Shown: piece after piece, positions 3,298-23,788 of the stretch
Layout of the letters: each line of letters begins with the position of its first letter
Position numbering within the stretch: position 1 is the stretch's first letter
Assembly (NCBI RefSeq): GCF_022655595.1
Contig: NZ_CP093379.1
Coordinates: 2,678,010-2,742,009, forward strand
Source of the DNA: Ignatzschineria rhizosphaerae
Lineage (GTDB): Bacteria > Pseudomonadota > Gammaproteobacteria > Cardiobacteriales > Wohlfahrtiimonadaceae
Direction of reading: 5' to 3'
Length of the DNA stretch: 64,000 nucleotides
Made by a program: the position numbers and the translations under genes
The notes under the pieces: generated by a model
Database searches by the model: none
Told to the model about the DNA's origin: nothing
The model's input: only the letters and a program-made list of their open reading frames with translations

Positions 3298-3726
3298 ATG
3301 AATTTAATGAATTACAGTAAAGACAAGTTTGAAAAATCGCAAAAGATGGAGGTGTTATACCCAACAGGAGCAAAAAGCGGTGGGGTTATTTATATCCGAT
3401 CTCTGAAGTCTAAAGCTGTGCAAACCAAGATTGACGAGATTGCAAAGCTAAATAATCAAGTGAAAGCTCAAGGGGTAGGAGCGGCGGTAGATAATGATAT
3501 CGAAATAGCATGTGAGATTGTCGATAGTATTGATGGGTTTACTATCGAAGAAGCAGATAACACGATCGGTTTTGAGTTGTCTGATGGGAATAAAATCGTC
3601 TCTACTCGTGAGAATATTAAGCTGCTCTTGGAGAATTTCCCGTTTATCAGAAGCCAAATTGCAGTTAAGGCACAAGATGATAATTTTTTTTACAAGAGCT
3701 CAGAGACAGAGCAAAAGACTGCATAG
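3298..3726 (+). CDS. Tail assembly chaperone, short form (lambda gpG-like)
   Basis: 142 residues, the zero-frame product ending at TAG 3724-3726. It follows the tube gene and precedes the tape measure region, the standard place of gpG. The sequence is acidic and helical, with a central D-N-D-I-E-I-A-C-E-I-V-D-S-I-D-G-F-T block like other tail chaperones of this class. Near its 3' end it carries an eight-T slippery run, allowing a longer G-T fusion. The short form is expected in large excess, coating the tape measure protein during tail assembly. Confidence 0.75.
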   Translation: MNLMNYSKDKFEKSQKMEVLYPTGAKSGGVIYIRSLKSKAVQTKIDEIAKLNNQVKAQGVGAAVDNDIEIACEIVDSIDGFTIEEADNTIGFELSDGNKIVSTRENIKLLLENFPFIRSQIAVKAQDDNFFYKSSETEQKTA

Positions 3727-4040
3727 AGTTCTATTTTAGACCTGTTGGGGAGAGTAAAGAAACTCTCTTTCAGCAGGTTTCAGCTACTGCCAAGCAGGTT
3801 GATAGCGATATAGGGGATCTAATAGATATTCCTGAAATTCCTCTTTACTATCAGCATGTATGGGCATGGTTTATCGACTTAAATCAGGCTCGGAGCAGTG
3901 GAGGATTTGGAGTTAATCCAATCTCGTATGACTCAATAGATGCCTACTTTCGAGTAATGAGCATTGAAGCAACCAGAGATGACATTCAGGCTTTAAAGAT
4001 ACTCGACTCGCTTTATCTTGAGGCGATATCAGAAAAATAA
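3298..4040 (+). CDS. Tail assembly chaperone frameshift product (lambda gpGT-like)
   Basis: Joined as 3298-3690 plus 3690-4040 by a -1 shift, giving about 247 residues. The -1 frame is open from the slip site through TAA 4038-4040. Its C-terminal part contains W-A-W-F-I-D-L-N-Q-A-R-S-S-G-G-F-G-V-N-P-I-S-Y, which matches the conserved W-x-x-x-x-L-x-x-x-R-x-x-G-F-G-x-N-P-I motif of tail chaperone T domains. In lambda, GT is made at a few percent of G and recruits tail tube subunits through the T domain. A conventional ORF caller would miss this gene entirely. Confidence 0.8.
3684..3690 (+). promoter_or_regulatory. Programmed -1 ribosomal frameshift slippery heptamer
   Basis: The heptamer T-TTT-TTT sits in exact phase with the upstream frame: AAT ends at 3684, followed by codons TTT 3685-3687 and TTT 3688-3690, and an eighth T follows at 3691. 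Slipping back one base leads into the overlapping frame that stays open to 4040. The downstream frame has no usable ATG, GTG or TTG start before its conserved part, so it can only be translated by frameshifting. Confidence 0.85.
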
Positions 4041-4064
4041 GGGATTCTTCGGAGTCCCTTTTTT
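4041..4064 (+). terminator. Terminator after the G/GT gene
   Basis: GGGA and TCCC arms around a TTCGG-containing loop, followed by six T. It ends the head/neck/tail-tube transcript and opens the accessory block. Confidence 0.7.
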
Positions 4065-5271: not shown

Positions 5272-5574
5272 ATGAAAGATATAAATCTAGAGTTAATGAA
5301 TGAGCCAAGAGAAAATGCCGGTGTAAAAAGGCTTCATGAGATTTTTTTAAGTGGCGGTGAGCCTACGAGTCAAGAGTGGGAAGATGGCTATGCTGATGCA
5401 GTATTCGAGTGGGAAAGGAGTAGCATGGAAGGGCTTGCCTTATTACGGGCTTTAAAGGTGCTAGATAAGGCTAACTTCGCTAAAGTTTGGAATCAATATG
5501 AGTCTATTTTGGCAGAGGAAATCGCTAAAAAAGTAGAGGAACTTGAATCAATCGAGGTTGAGGTTACCCACTAA
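5272..5574 (+). CDS. Hypothetical protein of the Rha cassette
   Basis: 100 residues, 17 bases after rha and probably co-transcribed. It is an acidic, largely helical protein with a W-E-D-G-Y-A-D-A-V-F-E-W-E-R segment near residues 42-55 and a C-terminal heptad-like helix (I-A-K-K-V-E-E-L-E-S-I-E). No signal peptide or membrane span. I do not recognise the family. Its pairing with a Rha regulator suggests a regulatory partner, but this is only context. Confidence 0.55.
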   Translation: MKDINLELMNEPRENAGVKRLHEIFLSGGEPTSQEWEDGYADAVFEWERSSMEGLALLRALKVLDKANFAKVWNQYESILAEEIAKKVEELESIEVEVTH

Positions 5575-5913
5575 CAAGAAAAGCTCAATTAAAAAGACCG
5601 TGGAGGACTGCACCAGTTTGTGCAGTCAGATTTGAAGCTGAGCAATTGCCCGATAAGCCGTCATTTATCCCGTAAGCGCAAAAATGCGTTGACGTTAGTC
5701 GTGATCCCGACCGACCTCTTGAGGCTCTATTTATCAGTGGTTTGAACTGGCGCAAAATCTGCACTAGTTGGGATACGGAAAGAATTAAGAATATGGATGG
5801 TCGGATAACTCTTAGTGAGGATTCGTTCTTGAAGATTAAATCAGAAATGAACGAGATTTCCAAAGCTGTATCGGAAGTCAAAAGTCTGATTTAAGTATTA
5901 ACAGTAAATATAT
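5575..5913. other. Gene-less stretch: inverted repeat plus a stop-interrupted reading frame
   Basis: No convincing intact gene. Forward frame 3 stays open from about 5562 to 5892 except for a single TAA (5672-5674, shortly after a P-S-F-I-P stretch) and has no good start. The part after the stop reads like protein, with S-R-D-P-D-R-P-L-E-A-L and a charged coiled C-terminus (E-M-N-E-I-S-K-A-V-S-E-V). This could be a decayed gene. A perfect 8-bp inverted repeat GACTGCAC/GTGCAGTC (5606-5613 and 5620-5627) could fold as an RNA hairpin or be an operator. A 98-codon reverse frame here lacks coding character. Confidence 0.4.
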
Positions 5914-5915
5914 GG

Positions 5916-5940
5916 ATAGCCCTGATTTAAGGGCTATTTG
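5916..5940 (+). terminator. Hairpin terminator before the GHKL nuclease gene
   Basis: ATAGCCCT (5916-5923) and AGGGCTAT (5930-5937) with a six-base loop. The T-run is short (TTTG), so strength is uncertain. The stem resembles those at 7888 and 8354. Confidence 0.6.
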
Positions 5941-5964
5941 TCGTTTAATTTAATTAGAGGTAAC

Positions 5965-7857
5965 ATGAAAGCAACTTTAAGTGATCAAGGCCTCAATTCA
6001 ATGAAAACAAATCTACCTAGAATCTCAGGATATCTGTATAAAAACGTTACAGTTAATGATGTTTTAAAAGAGTCTGTAATGAATTCTATACAGGCAAATG
6101 CGACTCAGATTGATATTACTCTGGGGTATCAGTATGACAGTACTATTGATGGTGAAGCTTCAGGTATGGGGCGCTTAAATAAGATATCCATCAGAGATAA
6201 TGGTGATGGGCTTACAAAGAGAAATACCGATGCTTTTTTTGAAGTTGCTACTGATAATAAAGCGGGGATTGGAGGGAAGGGAATTGGTCGGATCTCTTTC
6301 TTGAAGATAGCTAATAGAATTGAAGTTGAGAGCGTCTCAAAAGAAGGGAAGTTAGTTAAATTCCCTTTCTCATTTGATGCTAAAAGAGAGGATGTAATAA
6401 CATCTGATTGCAGAAATAAAGATACTTATACGCAAATCGTCTTGAGCGATTTAAATTTAAGACGATATGGCACACAGCCAGCATCGTGTGTTTCTTTTTT
6501 GAAAGAGAAGTTCAACCTGATGCTTTTTTTAAAGCAGCAAGATACTGGGAAAAATATATCGATCAATGTTTTTGTTAATAACTCTAAATTTGAGAGTATA
6601 AATAGCGAGGATATCAACTATTTAGAGAGCAGGCAGTATGAGAGTGGATCTTGTAATTTTCTTATTTATGTATTTAGAAATAAGAGCAAGAACGGAATAG
6701 CTATATCTTATTGCGCCAACAACCTTCAAGTTGACTCAGATGTAGTAAGCAAAGACTTTAAAACGCAGTATATATTTGCGATCACATCTGAATTCTTAGA
6801 TGAGAATGCTAACGCAGAAAGAACTAGATTTGATTTTAGAGATTTTGATGATTCAGAGCAGGAGGATGCAATATTACTTGCTCCCAATAAAGGATTTAAA
6901 GATGAGCTTAAAAAGCTATGTTTGGAAATAGTTCACCAGCATGAGCCTGATCTAGGAAAGGAAAATAAAACAAAGCTAAGTAAACTCAAAGAGCGGTACG
7001 GGTATATTAACTTTGATGATATTGACCCAAGTAGTTTATTTTTTGATGAAAAAAGAATAATTGAAGATTACAGAAAAAAAGTTAATGACAGTGAAGATAG
7101 ATTGGTTGCGCTTCTTGATAGGGCTGACATATCAATTGATCAGCTTGCTAGTGAAGTCACGGAGCAGAATAAGCATGAATTGGCTAAATATATATTCCAT
7201 AGAGATATAGTGGCCAAAAAAGGACTAGGGCTAACAGGTTCAAAAGAGAATGAAGATATCTTGCATAGTTTATTCTTTCCACAAAAAGCGACAGCTAAAT
7301 CCAAGGAAGGCAAGCAAAAGAATGAGATGGGGTTATATGAGAACAGTATATGGTTGCTAGATGATAAGTTCATGTCATTTGTTTACACTGCGTCAGATGT
7401 CGCCATGAAAAGGATATATGATGAGGTTGGTGACAAGAATGCCCCTAAAGCTCCAAGAGATCGCCCTGATTTATTTATTTTGTACAATAATCCTGAAAAA
7501 AGCGATTCATTTAAAGATGTCGTATTGATTGAATTCAAAAAAGGAGATATTAACTATTTAGAGAAGGCATCAGGAATAGATCAGGCTGTTCGGTATAAAA
7601 TGGCACTTATGGATATGGTGGATAATATAAGAAATTTCTACTGTTATATTATTTGTGATTTCGATGCTAATGATGAAAACCTAGAATTAGTTATGAGGGA
7701 TAGGACTTTCACGAAAGTATTTAGCAATGATGGTTGTATGTATTATGGGTATTTACCAGGCTCTAAAACACACATAACATTTATCTCGTCCAAGAGTATA
7801 TTCACCGATGCAGTAGCAAGAAATGAAACATTTTTAAATATTTTAAAGAATAGTTAA
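5965..7857 (+). CDS. GHKL ATPase fused to a PD-(D/E)XK nuclease domain, likely defence protein
   Basis: 630 residues. ATG 5965 is chosen because AGAGG lies four bases upstream and an in-frame TTG at 5938 sits in the preceding terminator. The N-terminus has all GHKL (Hsp90/MutL/MORC) ATP motifs: E36-S-V-M-N40-S-I-Q-A-N-A, D78-N-G-D-G82, and G101-I-G-G-K-G-I-G108. A central helical part follows. The C-terminus has P-D502, then E523-F-K525 and Q540-A-V-R-Y544, matching the PD-(D/E)XK plus QxxxY pattern of RecB-like nucleases. No membrane segment is seen. Such ATPase-nuclease fusions are linked to restriction and anti-phage systems. It is a single gene between two terminators in a prophage, so probably an exclusion moron; target and trigger are unknown. 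Confidence 0.75.
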   Translation: MKATLSDQGLNSMKTNLPRISGYLYKNVTVNDVLKESVMNSIQANATQIDITLGYQYDSTIDGEASGMGRLNKISIRDNGDGLTKRNTDAFFEVATDNKAGIGGKGIGRISFLKIANRIEVESVSKEGKLVKFPFSFDAKREDVITSDCRNKDTYTQIVLSDLNLRRYGTQPASCVSFLKEKFNLMLFLKQQDTGKNISINVFVNNSKFESINSEDINYLESRQYESGSCNFLIYVFRNKSKNGIAISYCANNLQVDSDVVSKDFKTQYIFAITSEFLDENANAERTRFDFRDFDDSEQEDAILLAPNKGFKDELKKLCLEIVHQHEPDLGKENKTKLSKLKERYGYINFDDIDPSSLFFDEKRIIEDYRKKVNDSEDRLVALLDRADISIDQLASEVTEQNKHELAKYIFHRDIVAKKGLGLTGSKENEDILHSLFFPQKATAKSKEGKQKNEMGLYENSIWLLDDKFMSFVYTASDVAMKRIYDEVGDKNAPKAPRDRPDLFILYNNPEKSDSFKDVVLIEFKKGDINYLEKASGIDQAVRYKMALMDMVDNIRNFYCYIICDFDANDENLELVMRDRTFTKVFSNDGCMYYGYLPGSKTHITFISSKSIFTDAVARNETFLNILKNS

Positions 7858-7968: not shown

Positions 7969-8310
7969 ATGAAGCGTTTATTGGCAATGGTTATGGTTTC
8001 GTTATTTGTTGTGGGATGCAGTCAAAGCGAGGAGTCTAAAGAAGAGATGGACAAAATCGCTAGGATTAGGGTGGCTAAAGAATCTATTCAGAAGACCCTT
8101 GTAGACCCAAAATCAGCAGAGTACAAGGATATATATGTTCACAAAAATAGAGAAGGCGTGAAAGCTGTTTGTGGTTATGTGAATGCAAAAAATAGGCTTG
8201 GGGGATATGCAGGCTATGAACCATTTTTGGCTGTAGGGAGTATTGCCGCAACAAAATCACAGGGTGGCAAGGAATTTGCTGAGGCTTGGAATACTTACTG
8301 TGAAGGCTAA
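7969..8310 (+). CDS. Small lipoprotein, candidate superinfection-exclusion moron
   Basis: 113 residues. M-K-R-L-L then a hydrophobic run ends in the lipobox V-V-G-C, so the mature protein is lipidated at Cys17. The body contains V-D-P-K-S-A-E-Y-K-D-I, then V-C-G-Y-V-N-A-K-N-R-L-G-G-Y-A-G-Y, a pattern I know from many small prophage and proteobacterial lipoproteins of unknown function. A Cys near the C-terminus could pair with the Cys of V-C-G. It has its own ribosome site (GGAGAG) and is closed by terminators on both sides, so it is probably expressed in the lysogen. Blocking DNA injection by related phages is a reasonable guess, not shown. Confidence 0.7.
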   Translation: MKRLLAMVMVSLFVVGCSQSEESKEEMDKIARIRVAKESIQKTLVDPKSAEYKDIYVHKNREGVKAVCGYVNAKNRLGGYAGYEPFLAVGSIAATKSQGGKEFAEAWNTYCEG

Positions 8311-8405: not shown

Positions 8406-8486
8406 ATGGCAGATTTAGGGATGCTTATTAAAGTCCAAGCAGTGGGGGTTAGTGGCGTTGAGTCAGATTTAGATCGCCTCACTTAG
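8406..8486 (+). pseudogene. Relic of a tape-measure gene 5' end
   Basis: Twenty-six codons start M-A-D-L-G-M-L-I-K-V-Q-A-V-G-V and stop at TAG 8484-8486. The intact tape-measure protein at 9429 starts M-A-D-L-G-M-Y-I-R-V-S-A-V-G-A. Spacing to the ribosome site (GGAAGAG) and the terminator upstream are also alike. This is a second, diverged tape-measure start cut off after 26 residues, left when the SHOCT cassette entered or when two related phages recombined. It may still be translated as a short peptide. Confidence 0.8.
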
Positions 8487-8510: not shown

Positions 8511-9266
8511 TTAGGGGTTTAAGATTTTTATTTTCTCGGCTTGAAACTCATCATCCGTTAGTACACCTCGATCTTTTAGACTGGCGAGTCTTTCCAATTT
8601 TGAGATAGTGTTGGCTTCATCTGATAGATCTAATGGAAGAGAGGCATTTTTTTTATCAATCATATCTGCTTGATGGATGATTACATTTAGTGTGCTTTCC
8701 CATTTTCTAGCAGAGCTTATTGCTTCTTGATAGATTTCGTCATTCTTTTCAACTTCTTGATCTAAAAAGTGAATGATGTGATCAGGGTTGACGGTACTGT
8801 TGACAACGACACGAAGAATAATGCTATTAGCATTAGTTGATGTTTTTTTAGAGCCAGAAAGCCCACCTATAACAGCTCCTACTCCGCCTAAAAGAATTGA
8901 GCCTAATAAAGCACCACCTATTTGGCTAGTTCTAGATGTTTTAGTAATAGAAACTCCATCTTCAATTAATTCAACTAAGAGCACATCCTGAAAGCTAATC
9001 ATTGTTAAATTGAAGGGGTGTTGGCTTTGTATTAGGCATATTTTCTTTCTATCTTCATCAATAGCTATACCTGTTTTTAGGCGTGGAGCGAGATAGTAGC
9101 CAGTAGCAGTGAAACTATCAAGATTATTTATGGATTTTAGTATTAAGGTATCTTTACTTTTGTCGATCTCTTTTTGGGTTTCGCCCCACATTTTTAAAAG
9201 GAGAGTAAGAGCATAGAGAGCAGGGATAGCTAAAACAAGCAACCCCCAAAACATATTAGGATTCAT
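8511..9266 (-). CDS. SHOCT-domain membrane protein with glycine zipper
   Basis: 251 residues on the strand opposite to the tail genes, with GAGG seven bases before ATG. Segments in order: N-terminal transmembrane helix (about residues 6-26), a beta-rich soluble region, a glycine-zipper hydrophobic segment (about 116-136, G-G-A-L-L-G-S-I-L-L-G-G-V-G-A-V-I-G-G), a helical part, and a C-terminal SHOCT motif K-L-E-R-L-A-S-L-K-D-R-G-V-L-T-D-D-E-F-Q-A-E-K. SHOCT tails are short oligomerisation helices on many membrane and stress proteins. Its inverted position between the relic and the real tape-measure gene marks it as an independent moron expressed in the lysogen. Function unknown. Confidence 0.7.
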   Translation of the reverse strand: MNPNMFWGLLVLAIPALYALTLLLKMWGETQKEIDKSKDTLILKSINNLDSFTATGYYLAPRLKTGIAIDEDRKKICLIQSQHPFNLTMISFQDVLLVELIEDGVSITKTSRTSQIGGALLGSILLGGVGAVIGGLSGSKKTSTNANSIILRVVVNSTVNPDHIIHFLDQEVEKNDEIYQEAISSARKWESTLNVIIHQADMIDKKNASLPLDLSDEANTISKLERLASLKDRGVLTDDEFQAEKIKILNP

Positions 9267-9428: not shown

Positions 9429-12400
9429 ATGGCTGATTTAGGTATGTACATCAGGGTTAGTGCTGTTGGGGCGGATAGGGCTGAAGATGCTTTAAATAAA
9501 GTTGCTAATACTGCTGATAAGCTAGAAAGAAAATCAGGGAGTGCTAGTGGAAAAGTAGATGATCTTGGGAACTCTTTGGAGAAGACAGGTAGAAAAGCAA
9601 GAGATGCAGAGCAGTATTTGGGGTTGGCAGAGAAGGCTATAAAAGGACTAGTAACACTTCAAGTTACACGGAGCTTGCTTGATATTGGCGATAATTACAG
9701 AGCAATGAGTGAGCGGGTGAGGATGGCGACAGATAGCTTGGGAGAATTTAATTTCGTTCAGCAGAGATTACTGCAATCTGCAAATACTTCATTCAGATCT
9801 TTAGCTGAAGCTCAAGAGATGTTTATTGCTACATCTGGAAACTTGAGGTCGATGGGGTATTCTCTAGGACAAGCTTTAGATATTACAGACAGTCTCAGCT
9901 TTGCCTTTGTCCGTAATGCTACGTCAGCCCAAAGAGCCGAATCTGCGATTATTCAATATGATAAAGCTCTGAGTAAGGGGGTAATGAATGGCGAGCAGTG
10001 GCGTGTATTTTCAGGTGCAGTTGAGACTGTGGCGAAAAATATAGGAGATGTTTATGGTAAGACTGCACAAGAAATAGATAAAATGGGGCATGATGGGCTT
10101 CTGACTGTTCAAATGATTAACGAAGGACTTCTAAGATCGTTAAATGAAAATAAGGTTGCCGCAGATTCAATGGCAAATACAGTTGGGGATTCCTTTGTTA
10201 AGTTGAATAATGAGTTTAGTCACTTATGGGGAAATATTAACGAAAGCCTAGGGGTTACTTCTCTATTTGCATCAACAGTTATCGGTATTGCTGATAATTT
10301 GGAGTATGCTTTAATTCCAGTCTTAGTGGCTGCATCAGTGGTAACAGGGAGAATGACTTCAGGGTTGATTACTACTGCAAATTCATTTAGAAAATCAGCA
10401 TTCGAAGCTAGTAGGTATCAAGTGAAGTTAGCAGAATTAACAGGGGCTTCTCGAGTGGCTGCTAGATCAATGGTAGCAACATCTGTTGCTGCTCAAGGAT
10501 TATCTTCAACAATTGCATTTTTAGGAGGACCGGTTGGAGCGTTGACAACTGCAGTGACAATAGCTACAGGAGGTTGGATGTTATTTGCAAATAGCACTAG
10601 AGATGCAAAATCAGAAGTAGGTCAATTGGAGCAAGAGGTAATGGATCTAACTGAGCGCTTGAAAACGATGAATAAAGAAAAGGTCGAAGGTGCTCAAATA
10701 AAATATTCCGACATGTTTTTAGATTTGTCAGAAAAGAGGAGAGGGTTAGAGTCTGATATTGATGCTATTGAGTCGCAATTAGAGGGTTTTTATAGAAGGC
10801 AGAGATTATATGCTGCTAGAGGAGTTGAAGATGCCAGCACAAACAATTTGATTGCGAGAGATCAAAAAAGGTTAGCACTACTTAAAGAGGAAGCAACTTA
10901 TACAGATGATGCCTTAAAAATTGTATCGGATACTTTGGAATTAATTCAGGAAAGAGCTAAAACGGCAGGAGGGCAAATCATTGAGATGGGGGCTTGGGCT
11001 AGACTGGCGAAAAATGCTAATGAGGGATTAAACTTAGCAGGAAAGTCTTTAGATCTTTACTCTTCCATGGCTAAGAAAATGTATGAGATTAATAATAATG
11101 GGGTTGAGGCTCAGTTAGCTTTTGAGAGGGCTGTTGGTAATTTAGATGATATGGATGAGAGTACATATCAGGTATTTTTAAATTGGGCGAAGATAATTGA
11201 TCAGCAACAACTCATGAAGGCAAACGATGAAGAGCTTACAAAAATACTTTCAGACGTAGAAGAGCAATATGACAATATAGGCAAAAGCGTGCAGGAGATC
11301 ACTCGAGCGAAATTGATAGCAAGAGCAGTTGATTTAGGTATTGATCCTGAGCAGCTAAAGGAACTTGAATTTTGGTTGACGGCTATCGGAAATGCTCCAA
11401 ATGTTGGCGGAAAAACAAGCCTAAACTACTTTGATGATACCCTTAAATCTCTCAATGATGAGCTAATCTCAACTAAAGCATTAACACAAGATCTAACTCT
11501 TTTTGGCGATCTTAGTCAATACACGGCATTTTCTGAAATGACTATGCAGTTAAACGATACTAAAGGCGTATTGGCGAATATCACGGCTTCACAAAGAGAA
11601 TTACTGCTCTATAAAGCTCAAGAGCTAGATTCACAGAAGCAAATCAATGCGATTTTAGAATTAGGGCGTGATACTACTCAAGACCTTGATGATCTAGAGT
11701 TTGAAATTAGCTTATATGGCAAGAGCCAAAAAGAGATTGAAAGACTTACGTTTTTTAGAGATTTAGACAATGAAGCACGCTTGATCTCAATCGGCATGAC
11801 AGAGGATAATATCGCAGTCCTGAATAGAGAGATTGAGGCACTAAAAGAGCGTTACGGCTTAATTGAAATGAACCGTGAGCATGACGAGAATAGTATCGGG
11901 AAAGGTATCGAAAGTGGCTTCCAACAATACATCGACAATATCGGCACAATGAGAGATTCATTCGCTGATGCTACGCAGTCGGTATTTGGAAATATTGAAG
12001 GCTTCCTCGTTGATTTTGCGCATACTGGAAAGCTTAACTTTAGAGATATGACGACTTCGATTCTGCAAGATTTATCGCAGATTATGATTCGTATAGCTAT
12101 GATGCAGGCGGTTACAGGCATGCAAGGATGGTTATCTGGCTTAGGCTTATTCTCAGGTGGTGGAAGTGTCCCAATTAGTCCAGGTATTCCTTATCAAGCA
12201 TGGACAGGCGGACTTATTCCTGAATACGCAACAGGCGGTCGAGTAATTGACTTCTCAGGCGGAGGATTCACAGGAATGGGCGGAAAGTTTGAGCCTAAAG
12301 GGATCGTTCACGGTGGCGAATATGTCATGAGTAAAGCGGCCGTTAATAATCTTGGAGTTGGGTATTTTGAACAGCTTCATGATTTAGCGAAAAGCGGACG

Positions 12401-12671
12401 AGGCTTTGCAAATGGCGGTCATGTTGGCAGATCATCAACGCAAATGGCAATGATGGGATATATGCCGGCAAATCACTCTACACCTCAACAGCAATCACAG
12501 CCAAGCGGAGATGTTGTTGTTCATCAAACTATTCATTATCAAAGTAGCGGTGATGGGAAAGAGGATGCGAGAAAAGCTGCTAAAGAGTTTGCAGAGAGTT
12601 ATAAGACTGAATTTAAAAAGCTTTTAAAAGATGAGGTTCGAGATGGGGGAATGATTGGTCCTCGACGATAA
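9429..12671 (+). CDS. Tail tape measure protein (lambda gpH-like)
   Basis: 1,080 residues, preceded by AAGGAGAG. It has the long, mostly helical composition of tape measures. The N-terminus M-A-D-L-G-x-x-I-R-V is shared by this class. Hydrophobic stretches around residues 290-400 could enter the host membrane at infection. The C-terminal part contains the conserved lambda-family segment T-G-K-L-N-F-R-D-M-T-T-S-I-L-Q-D-L-S at about residues 866-883, followed by a glycine-rich region and H-G-G-E-Y-V. The protein sets tail length and is coated by G/GT chaperones; at this length the tail would be around 150 nm by the usual residue-to-length rule (inference). Confidence 0.92.
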   Translation: MADLGMYIRVSAVGADRAEDALNKVANTADKLERKSGSASGKVDDLGNSLEKTGRKARDAEQYLGLAEKAIKGLVTLQVTRSLLDIGDNYRAMSERVRMATDSLGEFNFVQQRLLQSANTSFRSLAEAQEMFIATSGNLRSMGYSLGQALDITDSLSFAFVRNATSAQRAESAIIQYDKALSKGVMNGEQWRVFSGAVETVAKNIGDVYGKTAQEIDKMGHDGLLTVQMINEGLLRSLNENKVAADSMANTVGDSFVKLNNEFSHLWGNINESLGVTSLFASTVIGIADNLEYALIPVLVAASVVTGRMTSGLITTANSFRKSAFEASRYQVKLAELTGASRVAARSMVATSVAAQGLSSTIAFLGGPVGALTTAVTIATGGWMLFANSTRDAKSEVGQLEQEVMDLTERLKTMNKEKVEGAQIKYSDMFLDLSEKRRGLESDIDAIESQLEGFYRRQRLYAARGVEDASTNNLIARDQKRLALLKEEATYTDDALKIVSDTLELIQERAKTAGGQIIEMGAWARLAKNANEGLNLAGKSLDLYSSMAKKMYEINNNGVEAQLAFERAVGNLDDMDESTYQVFLNWAKIIDQQQLMKANDEELTKILSDVEEQYDNIGKSVQEITRAKLIARAVDLGIDPEQLKELEFWLTAIGNAPNVGGKTSLNYFDDTLKSLNDELISTKALTQDLTLFGDLSQYTAFSEMTMQLNDTKGVLANITASQRELLLYKAQELDSQKQINAILELGRDTTQDLDDLEFEISLYGKSQKEIERLTFFRDLDNEARLISIGMTEDNIAVLNREIEALKERYGLIEMNREHDENSIGKGIESGFQQYIDNIGTMRDSFADATQSVFGNIEGFLVDFAHTGKLNFRDMTTSILQDLSQIMIRIAMMQAVTGMQGWLSGLGLFSGGGSVPISPGIPYQAWTGGLIPEYATGGRVIDFSGGGFTGMGGKFEPKGIVHGGEYVMSKAAVNNLGVGYFEQLHDLAKSGRGFANGGHVGRSSTQMAMMGYMPANHSTPQQQSQPSGDVVVHQTIHYQSSGDGKEDARKAAKEFAESYKTEFKKLLKDEVRDGGMIGPRR

Positions 12672-21430: not shown

Positions 21431-23008
21431 TTATGCAAATCTGATTATTTTTCCGCTTGTTGGGTTTGGCGCTTCAAATACAAAACCATTTTCATCTATA
21501 AAGCACTCATTCATAATACTAAACTCATGTATGGAATCCTTCATTTCTTTATGTAGATTGATGTCGGATATTTTTGCATCCTCTAATGAGGATAGCCCTT
21601 TAATATTCTCAGTAATAATATTAAGAAGCTGAGGTTTATTTAGGTTATCAAACTCAACGATGACGTCGTTGAAAGTTATTACTTCCTTGCTGCTAATTAC
21701 TTTGAAGCTAAGCCATAGTTTTTCAGTTGTATCAAACCCATCAGGTAGTGGGAAAATATCTAACAAAGGTACATTGAGGTTATTCTCAGGGTGAGCGTCA
21801 TCGATGCCAGCCCATATCAACGCTAAAGCATTGTTTTCTCTTGATGTGCATAGGTCAATAAAGTCACTCCACCACTGAATCATAATCCTTCTCTGTGGGA
21901 GATATTCAGCTTTATTATATGTTTCTCTCACGTTATCTTTATCTGAGTGAGCGAGAGCCATCTCAATAGCATCAGAATCAAACATTCTTCTATAATTAGA
22001 AGAAGCTTCATTCAGCACGGTTGAAGCTAAATGTCTAATGCCATGTAGGGAAGAATCAATATTATTCGTCGCTAAAGTTTTAAGGAGTGTTTTTCTGGAA
22101 ATATGCCCATCTATCGAATTGGTAGAGAAGATAAAATTGCTATCATTCTGCTGTAGTTTTAATATATTTCTAGTTTGTCTGGTTAGTGGGACTATGTGTT
22201 CTTTCTTTGTTTTTATTATCGAAGCAGGTAGATCAAAATAACCTCTATTCTCATTAACATAATCCCACTCAAGATTAGTGACCTCTTGCGCTCGAGCTAT
22301 ATTTCTAAAAATTAATTCAAGAGCTCTTTTTGTAACACCTTGCGCTGTAGAGTGTTTAAAGTAGTTGACCAGTTTGTAAATCTCATAGATCGAGAGTGAT
22401 CTGTGGTTTTTTGTTACATGTTTTTTATAAGATGATAATGAGATAAGGTGGGTTGGATCATACTTTACCTGTCCTTTTTTAGCTGCATTTTGAAAAACTC
22501 TACTAAAATAAGACTTTACTCGCTGCAAAGAAGAAAGGTTACCGCTTCTTTCTACTTTCATTAAGACTCTATCTATATCTTTTGTCTCGATGTTATCAAT
22601 TTGCATATTCCCGATCATTCTAAAAGCATACGTGCTTATTAAATGAAAGGCTTCTTTAGCCGTTTTCTCCGCAACTTCCTCTTTCCATTTATCATGCCAA
22701 TTGTGAAAGGCTTCTATAAAATTAACCCCTGAGTGGATTGTTTTGGGGTTTTGTTTGCTCATCACAAGTTTTCTTAGCTCGCTATGCTTCTCTCTAGCTT
22801 CGGCTAATGTTGTTAGTGGGAAGTCTCCAATAATAATTGTGTCTGACTTTTTAGTATCAGGATTTTTAAATCTGTACTCCCAAATTTTATTACCAGCAGA
22901 TGTAATTTTAAGGCAGAGCCCATCGCCATCATATAAGCGATAAAGTTTATCCTTTTTCTTAGCTTTTAATATTTCAGTATTAGTTAAAGATCTAGGTCTG
23001 CGAGCCAT
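21431..23008 (-). CDS. Tyrosine-recombinase prophage integrase (P4 type) with C-terminal extension
   Basis: 525 residues from ATG 23008 (AAGG eight bases upstream); an in-frame TTG at 23038 would add ten residues. The N-terminus M-A-R-R-P-R-S-L-T-N and L-Y-D-G-D-G-L-C-L-K-I-T match the arm-binding domain of P4-like integrases (DUF4102 type). Catalytic residues are visible: Arg in N-I-A-R-A-Q-E-V, H-G-I-R in S-L-H-G-I-R-H-L, His in L-A-H-S-D, and Tyr in V-R-E-T-Y-N-K-A-E-Y. About 140 residues continue after the usual end of the catalytic domain, making it longer than the roughly 400-residue norm; this tail is not recognised. It marks the right end of the prophage. Confidence 0.9.
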   Translation of the reverse strand: MARRPRSLTNTEILKAKKKDKLYRLYDGDGLCLKITSAGNKIWEYRFKNPDTKKSDTIIIGDFPLTTLAEAREKHSELRKLVMSKQNPKTIHSGVNFIEAFHNWHDKWKEEVAEKTAKEAFHLISTYAFRMIGNMQIDNIETKDIDRVLMKVERSGNLSSLQRVKSYFSRVFQNAAKKGQVKYDPTHLISLSSYKKHVTKNHRSLSIYEIYKLVNYFKHSTAQGVTKRALELIFRNIARAQEVTNLEWDYVNENRGYFDLPASIIKTKKEHIVPLTRQTRNILKLQQNDSNFIFSTNSIDGHISRKTLLKTLATNNIDSSLHGIRHLASTVLNEASSNYRRMFDSDAIEMALAHSDKDNVRETYNKAEYLPQRRIMIQWWSDFIDLCTSRENNALALIWAGIDDAHPENNLNVPLLDIFPLPDGFDTTEKLWLSFKVISSKEVITFNDVIVEFDNLNKPQLLNIITENIKGLSSLEDAKISDINLHKEMKDSIHEFSIMNECFIDENGFVFEAPNPTSGKIIRFA

Positions 23009-23040
23009 TTTAGTAACCTTATTTGTCTGTACCCTCAATT

Positions 23041-23156
23041 ATACCCTCATAAACTGTAGATTTACGATCTACAGGTAAAGGCGAGTAATCCTAATAGTAT
23101 ATGAAAAGATTGTAGTTGCAAAGACTCAAGGTATGTGAGAAGATCAATATCTACTG
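23041..23156. other. Integrase upstream region; probable right attachment zone
   Basis: This 116-bp stretch runs from the integrase start to an orphan plus-strand terminator and should contain the prophage-chromosome junction. I cannot pin down the core: no tRNA 3' end or tmRNA end is visible, and the left junction lies outside the window. It contains a perfect 8-bp inverted repeat described separately. Confidence 0.35.
23054..23074. promoter_or_regulatory. Perfect inverted repeat upstream of integrase
   Basis: CTGTAGAT (23054-23061) and ATCTACAG (23067-23074) around TTACG. It lies 46-66 bases before the integrase start, so it may be an operator for the integrase promoter or an excisionase/integrase arm site. 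Confidence 0.45.
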
Positions 23157-23190
23157 GGGAGTCCCGTTAACACTACGGACTTCCCTTTTT
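23157..23190 (+). terminator. Orphan terminator to the right of the prophage
   Basis: GGGAGTCC (23157-23164) pairs with GGACT-CCC (23177-23185, one bulge), followed by five T. No plus-strand gene lies between it and the integrase, so it probably belongs to the host gene or RNA into whose 3' end the phage integrated. Confidence 0.6.
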
Positions 23191-23284
23191 ATTTGCCTAA
23201 AAAAAGATATCAATCCAACTTTAGAGCGCAAATAAAAAGGGGAAGATCAAAATATTATTGTTTGATTTTTTAATGGAGTTTTCT

Positions 23285-23788
23285 ATGAAAATGGACATTT
23301 ACCCTAATAACCCATCTATCAACGCACAAGTTATATCAAACTATGATGCGACGAATCGTTCTATTAAAGAGCGTGCTTTTCATGCCATCTTATTTGAAAC
23401 AGTTGCACTTATCATCTGCGCACCACTATTTGCCTTTTTACTCAATCGCTCGGCTTCTGAAATGGGGTTGATGACGCTCATTATCGCGACGATTGCCGTG
23501 ATTTGGAATTTTATCTATAACGCCGCTTTCGATAGGGTTACGAGAGGTTTTATTAAAGAGCGAGGCTTTATTATCAGAATGATTCATGCCGGAGTTTTTG
23601 AAGGTGGTTTGATTATTATTACTGTCCCGATAATTGCTTGGGTGTTAAAGATGACACTACTTGAAGCGTTAATGATGGATATCGGCATCCTACTTTTTTT
23701 CTTACCTTACACGGTGATCTTTAATTGGATCTATGATGCCGTACGTAAAAATTTGTGGTTAAAAAAGGCAGAGAAGCTAAAAGATTAA
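23285..23788 (+). CDS. PACE-family efflux transporter
   Basis: 167 residues from ATG 23285, with GGAG six bases upstream (an upstream in-frame TTG at 23258 is less likely). Four transmembrane helices are visible as two repeats. Each has the bacterial transmembrane pair signature: R-x-F-H-A-x-L-F-E-T-x-A-L near helix 1 and W-N-F-I-Y-N-x-x-F-D at the end of helix 2, then R-M-I-H-A-x-x-F-E-G-G and F-N-W-I-Y-D. This is the AceI/PACE family, inner-membrane proton-driven exporters of biocides such as chlorhexidine and of short diamines. First chromosomal gene beyond the prophage. Confidence 0.9.
   Translation: MKMDIYPNNPSINAQVISNYDATNRSIKERAFHAILFETVALIICAPLFAFLLNRSASEMGLMTLIIATIAVIWNFIYNAAFDRVTRGFIKERGFIIRMIHAGVFEGGLIIITVPIIAWVLKMTLLEALMMDIGILLFFLPYTVIFNWIYDAVRKNLWLKKAEKLKD

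Follow-up and report, generated by a model that had tools for sequence, protein, structure and literature searches.

What does a gene for a GHKL ATPase joined to a PD-(D/E)XK nuclease do among the tail genes of a prophage in Ignatzschineria rhizosphaerae? The window analyzed here (the whole stretch of 64,000 nucleotides) carries the right-hand part of an intact prophage of ~49 kb, which was delimited with the help of flanking genome stretches and a 25-bp perfect direct repeat (CTGGGGAGTCCCGTTAACACTACGG) whose other copy lies at genome position 2651934. The prophage location given in the original prediction is supported. Besides an integrase gene, the element has genes for an S24/CI-type repressor, for the recombination proteins RecT and YqaJ and for head and tail, and a chlorhexidine-efflux gene (PACE, BTP domain; 23258-23788) is found directly past its attachment site. 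The gene in question encodes a protein of 630 residues, here called P0001. Its open reading frame is a real gene, beginning with an ATG at 5965 and carrying an AGAGGT ribosome-binding site immediately 5' of it. Coordinates of the features discussed below are collected in Table 1.

Table 1. Features of the P0001 gene and of the surrounding prophage (positions in the window)
Feature	Position	Strand	Basis
Tail-assembly chaperone (3298-3726) with an overlapping extension in the -1 frame, bounding the accessory stack on the left	3298..4041	+	phrog_313, E 2.3e-6; frame open to 4041
Terminator-like hairpin, 5' of the P0001 gene	5912..5941	+	
GHKL ATPase - PD-(D/E)XK nuclease gene (P0001, 630 aa)	5965..7857	+	ORF call, family alignments
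GHKL ATPase and S5-like transducer module, residues 8-332 (predicted)	5986..6960	+	Pfam HATPase_c_3, MORC3 fold match
N-box E36..N40	6070..6084	+	invariant in 43 sequences
G1 box DNGDG, residues 78-82	6196..6210	+	D78, G80, G82 invariant
G2 box GIGGKGIGR, residues 101-109	6265..6291	+	G106, G108, R109 invariant; G103 nearly
Helical linker between the two modules, residues 333-395 (predicted)	6961..7149	+	secondary structure of model
PD-(D/E)XK nuclease domain related to Shedu SduA_C, residues 396-630 (predicted)	7150..7854	+	hhalign, VIA-align
E430, first acidic nuclease residue, aligned with the ExxW glutamate of Shedu	7252..7254	+	invariant; hhalign
Nuclease core P501-D502 to E523-x-K525	7465..7539	+	D502, E523, K525 invariant
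Q540-xxx-Y544 motif	7582..7596	+	both residues invariant in 43 sequences
Hairpin ATAGCTCC-TTAACT-GGGGCTAT, 3' of the P0001 gene	7890..7911	+	read from sequence
Tape-measure protein, bounding the accessory stack on the right	9429..12671	+	TMP_3, E 6.4e-41; phrog_339, E 9.2e-111
Prophage integrase	21431..23038	-	Phage_integrase, Phage_int_M
Attachment-site repeat	23154..23178 (genome 2701163)	.	25-bp perfect direct repeat; other copy at genome 2651934

The GHKL ATPase of P0001 is N-terminal and the PD-(D/E)XK nuclease C-terminal, and a model of the whole protein was obtained with a pLDDT of 81 and a pTM of 0.63. The original prediction had read the GHKL motifs, the PD-(D/E)XK signature and a QxxxY motif within this one protein, and all of them are present. 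A family alignment of 43 sequences, 18-54% identical to P0001, showed E36, N40, D78, G80, G82, G106, G108, R109, E430, D502, E523, K525, Q540 and Y544 to be invariant. Because they are kept in sequences that share so little identity, the motifs are not chance occurrences, and they make up a full GHKL set together with a full PD-(D/E)XK and QxxxY set.

Sequence comparison supports an N-terminal GHKL ATPase with intact ATP-binding motifs, with Pfam HATPase_c_3 matching residues 29-138 (E 9.6e-13). The best fold match for residues 8-332 of the model was MORC3 (5ix2_A; Z 17.0, rmsd 4.4, 284 residues aligned), followed by MORC4, Hsp90 and MutL. As the alignments to MORC3, MutL and Hsp90 extend over both ATPase and transducer (Z 15-17), an S5-like transducer is predicted to follow the GHKL domain, by fold only. 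A search of viral folds returned mainly topoisomerases and T4 rIIA-like proteins, the common part being the GHKL domain alone.

For the C-terminal half, a nuclease had been proposed at residues 480-580. A nuclease fold was indeed predicted there, and residues 396-630 modeled alone (235 residues) gave a pLDDT of 83.6 and a pTM of 0.83, but the domain spans about 396-630 and its first acidic residue, E430, lies before 480. Model and alignment together point to a C-terminal restriction-fold nuclease with an E-D-ExK set, in which the ExK motif of P0001 reads E523-F-K525. No match for residues 413-630 was found in Pfam, NCBIfam, PADLOC or PHROGs, and a sequence search of the PDB with P0001 and both profiles returned no relevant nuclease match. 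The lack of a predicted nuclease fold had been named as a refutation of the original prediction, which withstood this test. Foldseek alone, though, placed no nuclease under E 0.001 (McrBC came first at 5.5e-3, with Shedu at 1.7e-2). VIA-align was then used as a second look at Foldseek's matches. Its first three matches were all Shedu structures, namely E. coli SduA 8ps4 (Z 9.6, rmsd 4.9, 171 residues), B. cereus Shedu 8ti9 (Z 9.3, rmsd 3.7, 154 residues) and 8ps5 (Z 8.2), followed by BspD6I (8.1) and FokI (7.2), so that in these model comparisons the gap from Shedu to the next nucleases is modest.

The independent profile comparisons were clear. When the C-terminus of the P0001 family was aligned with eight Shedu proteins in hhalign, probabilities of 96.4% (E 9.9e-10) and 95.2% (E 2.8e-8) were obtained, and the E, D, ExK and Q residues of the two sides lined up. 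As controls, the N-terminal part gave 0.0% and the best of 30 column-shuffled alignments gave 6.0%. Profiles were needed for this result, single sequences giving 2-26%, which is too weak to use. The nuclease of P0001 thus resembles Shedu SduA (PF14082/DUF4263; 8ps4, 8ti8, 8ti9) in having equivalent E, D, ExK and Q residues, whereas classical Shedu proteins are without the GHKL ATPase. In single-sequence HMM searches neither P0001 nor any of the 43 aligned sequences (0/43) was matched by PF14082 (SduA_C) or by the PADLOC SduA models, so the suggested check against PADLOC came back empty; as a positive control, the classical Shedu gene at 5320-6699 of a Vibrio locus (L008) matched PF14082 at 1.3e-25. 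A PF14082 search of the I. rhizosphaerae genome gave no match, and the control genomes were equally silent. Since the PF14082 and PADLOC SduA thresholds were failed, P0001 was not filed as classical Shedu. From profiles and folds, on which the link to Shedu rests, its nuclease is best described as a remote homolog of the Shedu nuclease.

Two described groups share this domain plan. The first is paraMORC3, defined by Iyer, Abhiman and Aravind in 2008 as a GHKL and S5 module with an added C-terminal restriction-fold domain bearing E-D-ExK, with a patchy and laterally mobile distribution and sometimes stand-alone (PMC2292703). The original prediction had pointed to these authors' work, and the link holds: P0001 has the same GHKL and S5 ATPase module and the same type of nuclease with E-D-ExK. 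The paraMORC3 paper stresses restriction-modification and helicase operons (PMC2292703), none of which was seen at the P0001 locus. The second is VcSduA, a one-gene anti-phage system on the VSP-II island of the WASA lineage of V. cholerae, reported in Nat Microbiol in 2025 (PMC12137116). VcSduA has a GHKL ATPase at its N-terminus, joined to a DUF4263 nuclease; its protection was abolished by E27A and likewise by K557A, and was similar at every multiplicity tested, consistent with direct phage restriction and host survival (PMC12137116). Its authors equate this architecture with paraMORC3 and with a proposed Shedu type I-D (PMC12137116).

P0001 shares with VcSduA the order of the two domains, the single-gene form, the catalytic glutamate (E36 in P0001, E27 in VcSduA) and the lysine (K525 and K557). 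It differs in lying on a prophage rather than an island, and in length, with 630 aa compared to about 670 aa for VcSduA-type relatives. By domain order, residues and predicted fold, P0001 fits the paraMORC3 or VcSduA-like architecture. The earlier view that such a stand-alone form was little described is not supported, as VcSduA is a single gene of the same architecture that needs both an ATPase and a nuclease residue (PMC12137116). The architecture of P0001 is not new; proteins of this kind were already on record, and 2025 brought the validation of one of them.

VcSduA itself was placed in the P0001 family by architecture and residue numbers, and the identity figures given here are those of VcSduA-type relatives. 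In two of these (L027 and L029), from a well-populated part of the tree, the aligned Glu is residue 27 and the aligned Lys residue 557, exactly the numbers of the residues essential in VcSduA. E36 of P0001 aligns with E27 of the VcSduA-type proteins and K525 with K557 of L027 and L029, and the alignment of L029 with P0001 is nearly full length (E 6e-24). These alignments argue for whole-protein homology of P0001 to members carrying E27 and K557.

The N-terminal part of P0001 is also related to the GHKL ATPase of the BbrUII/HgiDII restriction enzymes, which raises the question of whether P0001 does the cutting, as one subunit, in a restriction system of that sort, either modification-dependent or classical, and depends on a cognate methyltransferase. 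The NCBIfam model restrict_BbrUII (NF050001) matched residues 24-222 (E 4.8e-11), and paraMORCs often occur in restriction-modification operons (PMC2292703). However, unlike in BbrUII/HgiDII, the match is confined to the N-terminal third, the ATPase part alone, and its 41.9 bits fall far under the cut-off of 550, a score by which P0001 does not appear to belong to these enzymes. No methyltransferase was recognized among the scanned neighboring prophage ORFs, relatives of P0001 are mostly single genes, and VcSduA, of the same architecture, acts alone (PMC12137116). A methyltransferase-dependent role was rejected on the sub-cut-off NF050001 score and on the lack of a recognized methyltransferase among the scanned neighbors, and we regard the subunit explanation as improbable. 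Elsewhere in the genus, one genome (G008) has a cytosine-5 DNA methyltransferase gene (L006, 208-1461) followed by a 682-aa GHKL ORF, a locus that looks like a MORC/paraMORC restriction-modification system of the BbrUII/HgiDII sort.

Relatives of P0001 were drawn from IMG/VR prophages, a Snodgrassella gandavensis chromosome and plasmids. They turned up at 46 IMG/VR loci, in one isolated phage genome and on many plasmids, a spread that further tells against a little-described prophage form. The nearest are Snodgrassella-type prophage copies (L002-L004; 53% identical), which sit directly before terminase genes, and the chromosomal Snodgrassella copy (L005; 54% identical), which adjoins recR and polymorphic-toxin modules of the CdiA type; the viral contigs are presumed to be from Snodgrassella because they are so close to this chromosomal copy. 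In the tree, P0001 and the Snodgrassella copies form one branch with 100% SH-aLRT and a long stem, 20-25% identical to VcSduA-type proteins. What is new is this divergent sub-branch and the place of P0001 in a prophage late operon.

Several relatives lie beside known defense genes: a Vibrio relative next to type I restriction-modification genes and a true Shedu gene (L008), an Acinetobacter relative next to a CBASS-like set (L007), and others next to XamI restriction-modification and SIR2 (L012) or AbiE (L014). By analogy with these neighborhoods and with the VcSduA-type family to which P0001 belongs, the proposed role as a single-gene defense candidate is likely. The many relatives on conjugative plasmids, where competition between elements is usual, might instead suggest that the main targets of P0001 are plasmids or other mobile elements and not phages; yet VcSduA, the sole tested protein of this architecture, targets phages (PMC12137116), and we give this alternative little credence.

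The relative in the isolated phage, vB_RanS_PJN03 (L107, 2485-4509), adjoins an integrase gene; its annotation as an N-acetylmuramoyl-L-alanine amidase looks like a misannotation. It was reached only with the Vibrio relative as query, tblastn of P0001 in phage records having found none, and the Vibrio relative had no DNA-level match in E. coli genomes. A search of the phylum matched 84 of 398 sampled genomes, mostly through short hits to the GHKL region only, which were left out of the member count; full-length or nearly full-length copies were found in about 11 of the 398. Within the genus, the other genomes yielded no full-length copy.

Within the prophage, the P0001 gene had been described as a lone cassette, but it shares the interval from the tail chaperone to the tape-measure gene with several other accessory genes. 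In order, this stack comprises small ORFs, a Rha-type regulator, a 100-aa ORF, the P0001 gene, a lipoprotein gene, a tape-measure fragment and a reverse-strand SHOCT gene, and the P0001 gene is its only identifiable defense-type gene. The P0001 gene is regarded as a mobile accessory cassette because its neighbors change, its G+C is lower (about 34% vs. 39-42%) and hairpins stand on both sides.

Other genes in and beside the stack have features of their own. The overlapping -1-frame ORF after the chaperone (3298-4041) is without its own start and has CAAAAG just 5' of the stop, and it is likely a programmed frameshift of the lambda G/GT type. The Rha-type phage regulator (4700-5254; phrog_518, Phage_pRha) has an unusual location in the middle of a late operon. 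The small predicted lipoprotein 3' of the nuclease gene (7969-8310; VVGC lipobox, phrog_2320) is possibly an exclusion lipoprotein. At 8406-8486 a fragment of 26 codons (MADLGMLIKVQAVGVSGVESDLDRLT*), with its own ribosome-binding site, looks like the beginning of the tape-measure protein (MADLGMYIRVSAVGADRAEDALNKV) and is probably a recombination scar that arrived with the accessory stack from another phage. A membrane protein with a C-terminal SHOCT domain (8511-9266, reverse strand; phrog_27819/phrog_888) is inserted between late genes.

A position between tail genes in a late operon would suit a protein that serves the phage's own life cycle, in DNA replication, recombination, packaging or tail assembly. 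Against this, relatives are found in settings that have nothing in common (by an integrase, before terminase, beside chromosomal recR, and in plasmid defense islands), the P0001 gene is set off by its hairpins and low G+C, and full-length copies were not found in the other genomes of the genus. On these grounds a phage housekeeping role was rejected, and we hold it to be very unlikely. Nor do we think it at all probable that the gene is a passenger, silent or in decay. Upstream of it, no sigma-70-like promoter rose above chance, so that expression in the lysogen is a presumption, and remnants nearby, such as the truncated tape-measure start, show that the stack has been rearranged; but the frame is full length and no catalytic residue has been lost at 53-54% identity to its closest relatives, which implies selection on P0001.

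We therefore favor, with a probability of roughly 0.8, the explanation that P0001 is an anti-phage nuclease of the paraMORC3 or GHKL-Shedu (VcSduA-like) kind, encoded by a single gene that the prophage carries, judging from its sequence, its predicted folds and the analogy with VcSduA. As such an anti-phage nuclease, P0001 would dimerize via its GHKL/S5 module, and, in the manner of MutL, MORC and topoisomerase VI, the dimer would go through an ATP cycle of opening and closing on DNA. This ATP-driven switch may position and license the C-terminal PD-(D/E)XK nuclease, which would then cut incoming phage DNA while sparing host and prophage DNA, and without killing the host. The prophage would gain a host protected against competing phages. 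A further and rather unlikely possibility is that the branch of P0001 and the Snodgrassella copies is functionally distinct and phage-adapted, sensing a feature of incoming phage DNA other than that sensed by VcSduA (e.g., topology or replication state) and being exempted or shut down upon induction of its own prophage.

P0001 adds a divergent prophage-borne branch to a defense family with one characterized member. PADLOC 2023 and Pfam SduA_C miss these GHKL-Shedu relatives, even though 46 loci occur in one viral collection. As a distant and intact member, P0001 is useful for learning how a Shedu nuclease is gated by an ATPase of the MutL/MORC type, and by what means phage DNA is told from self.
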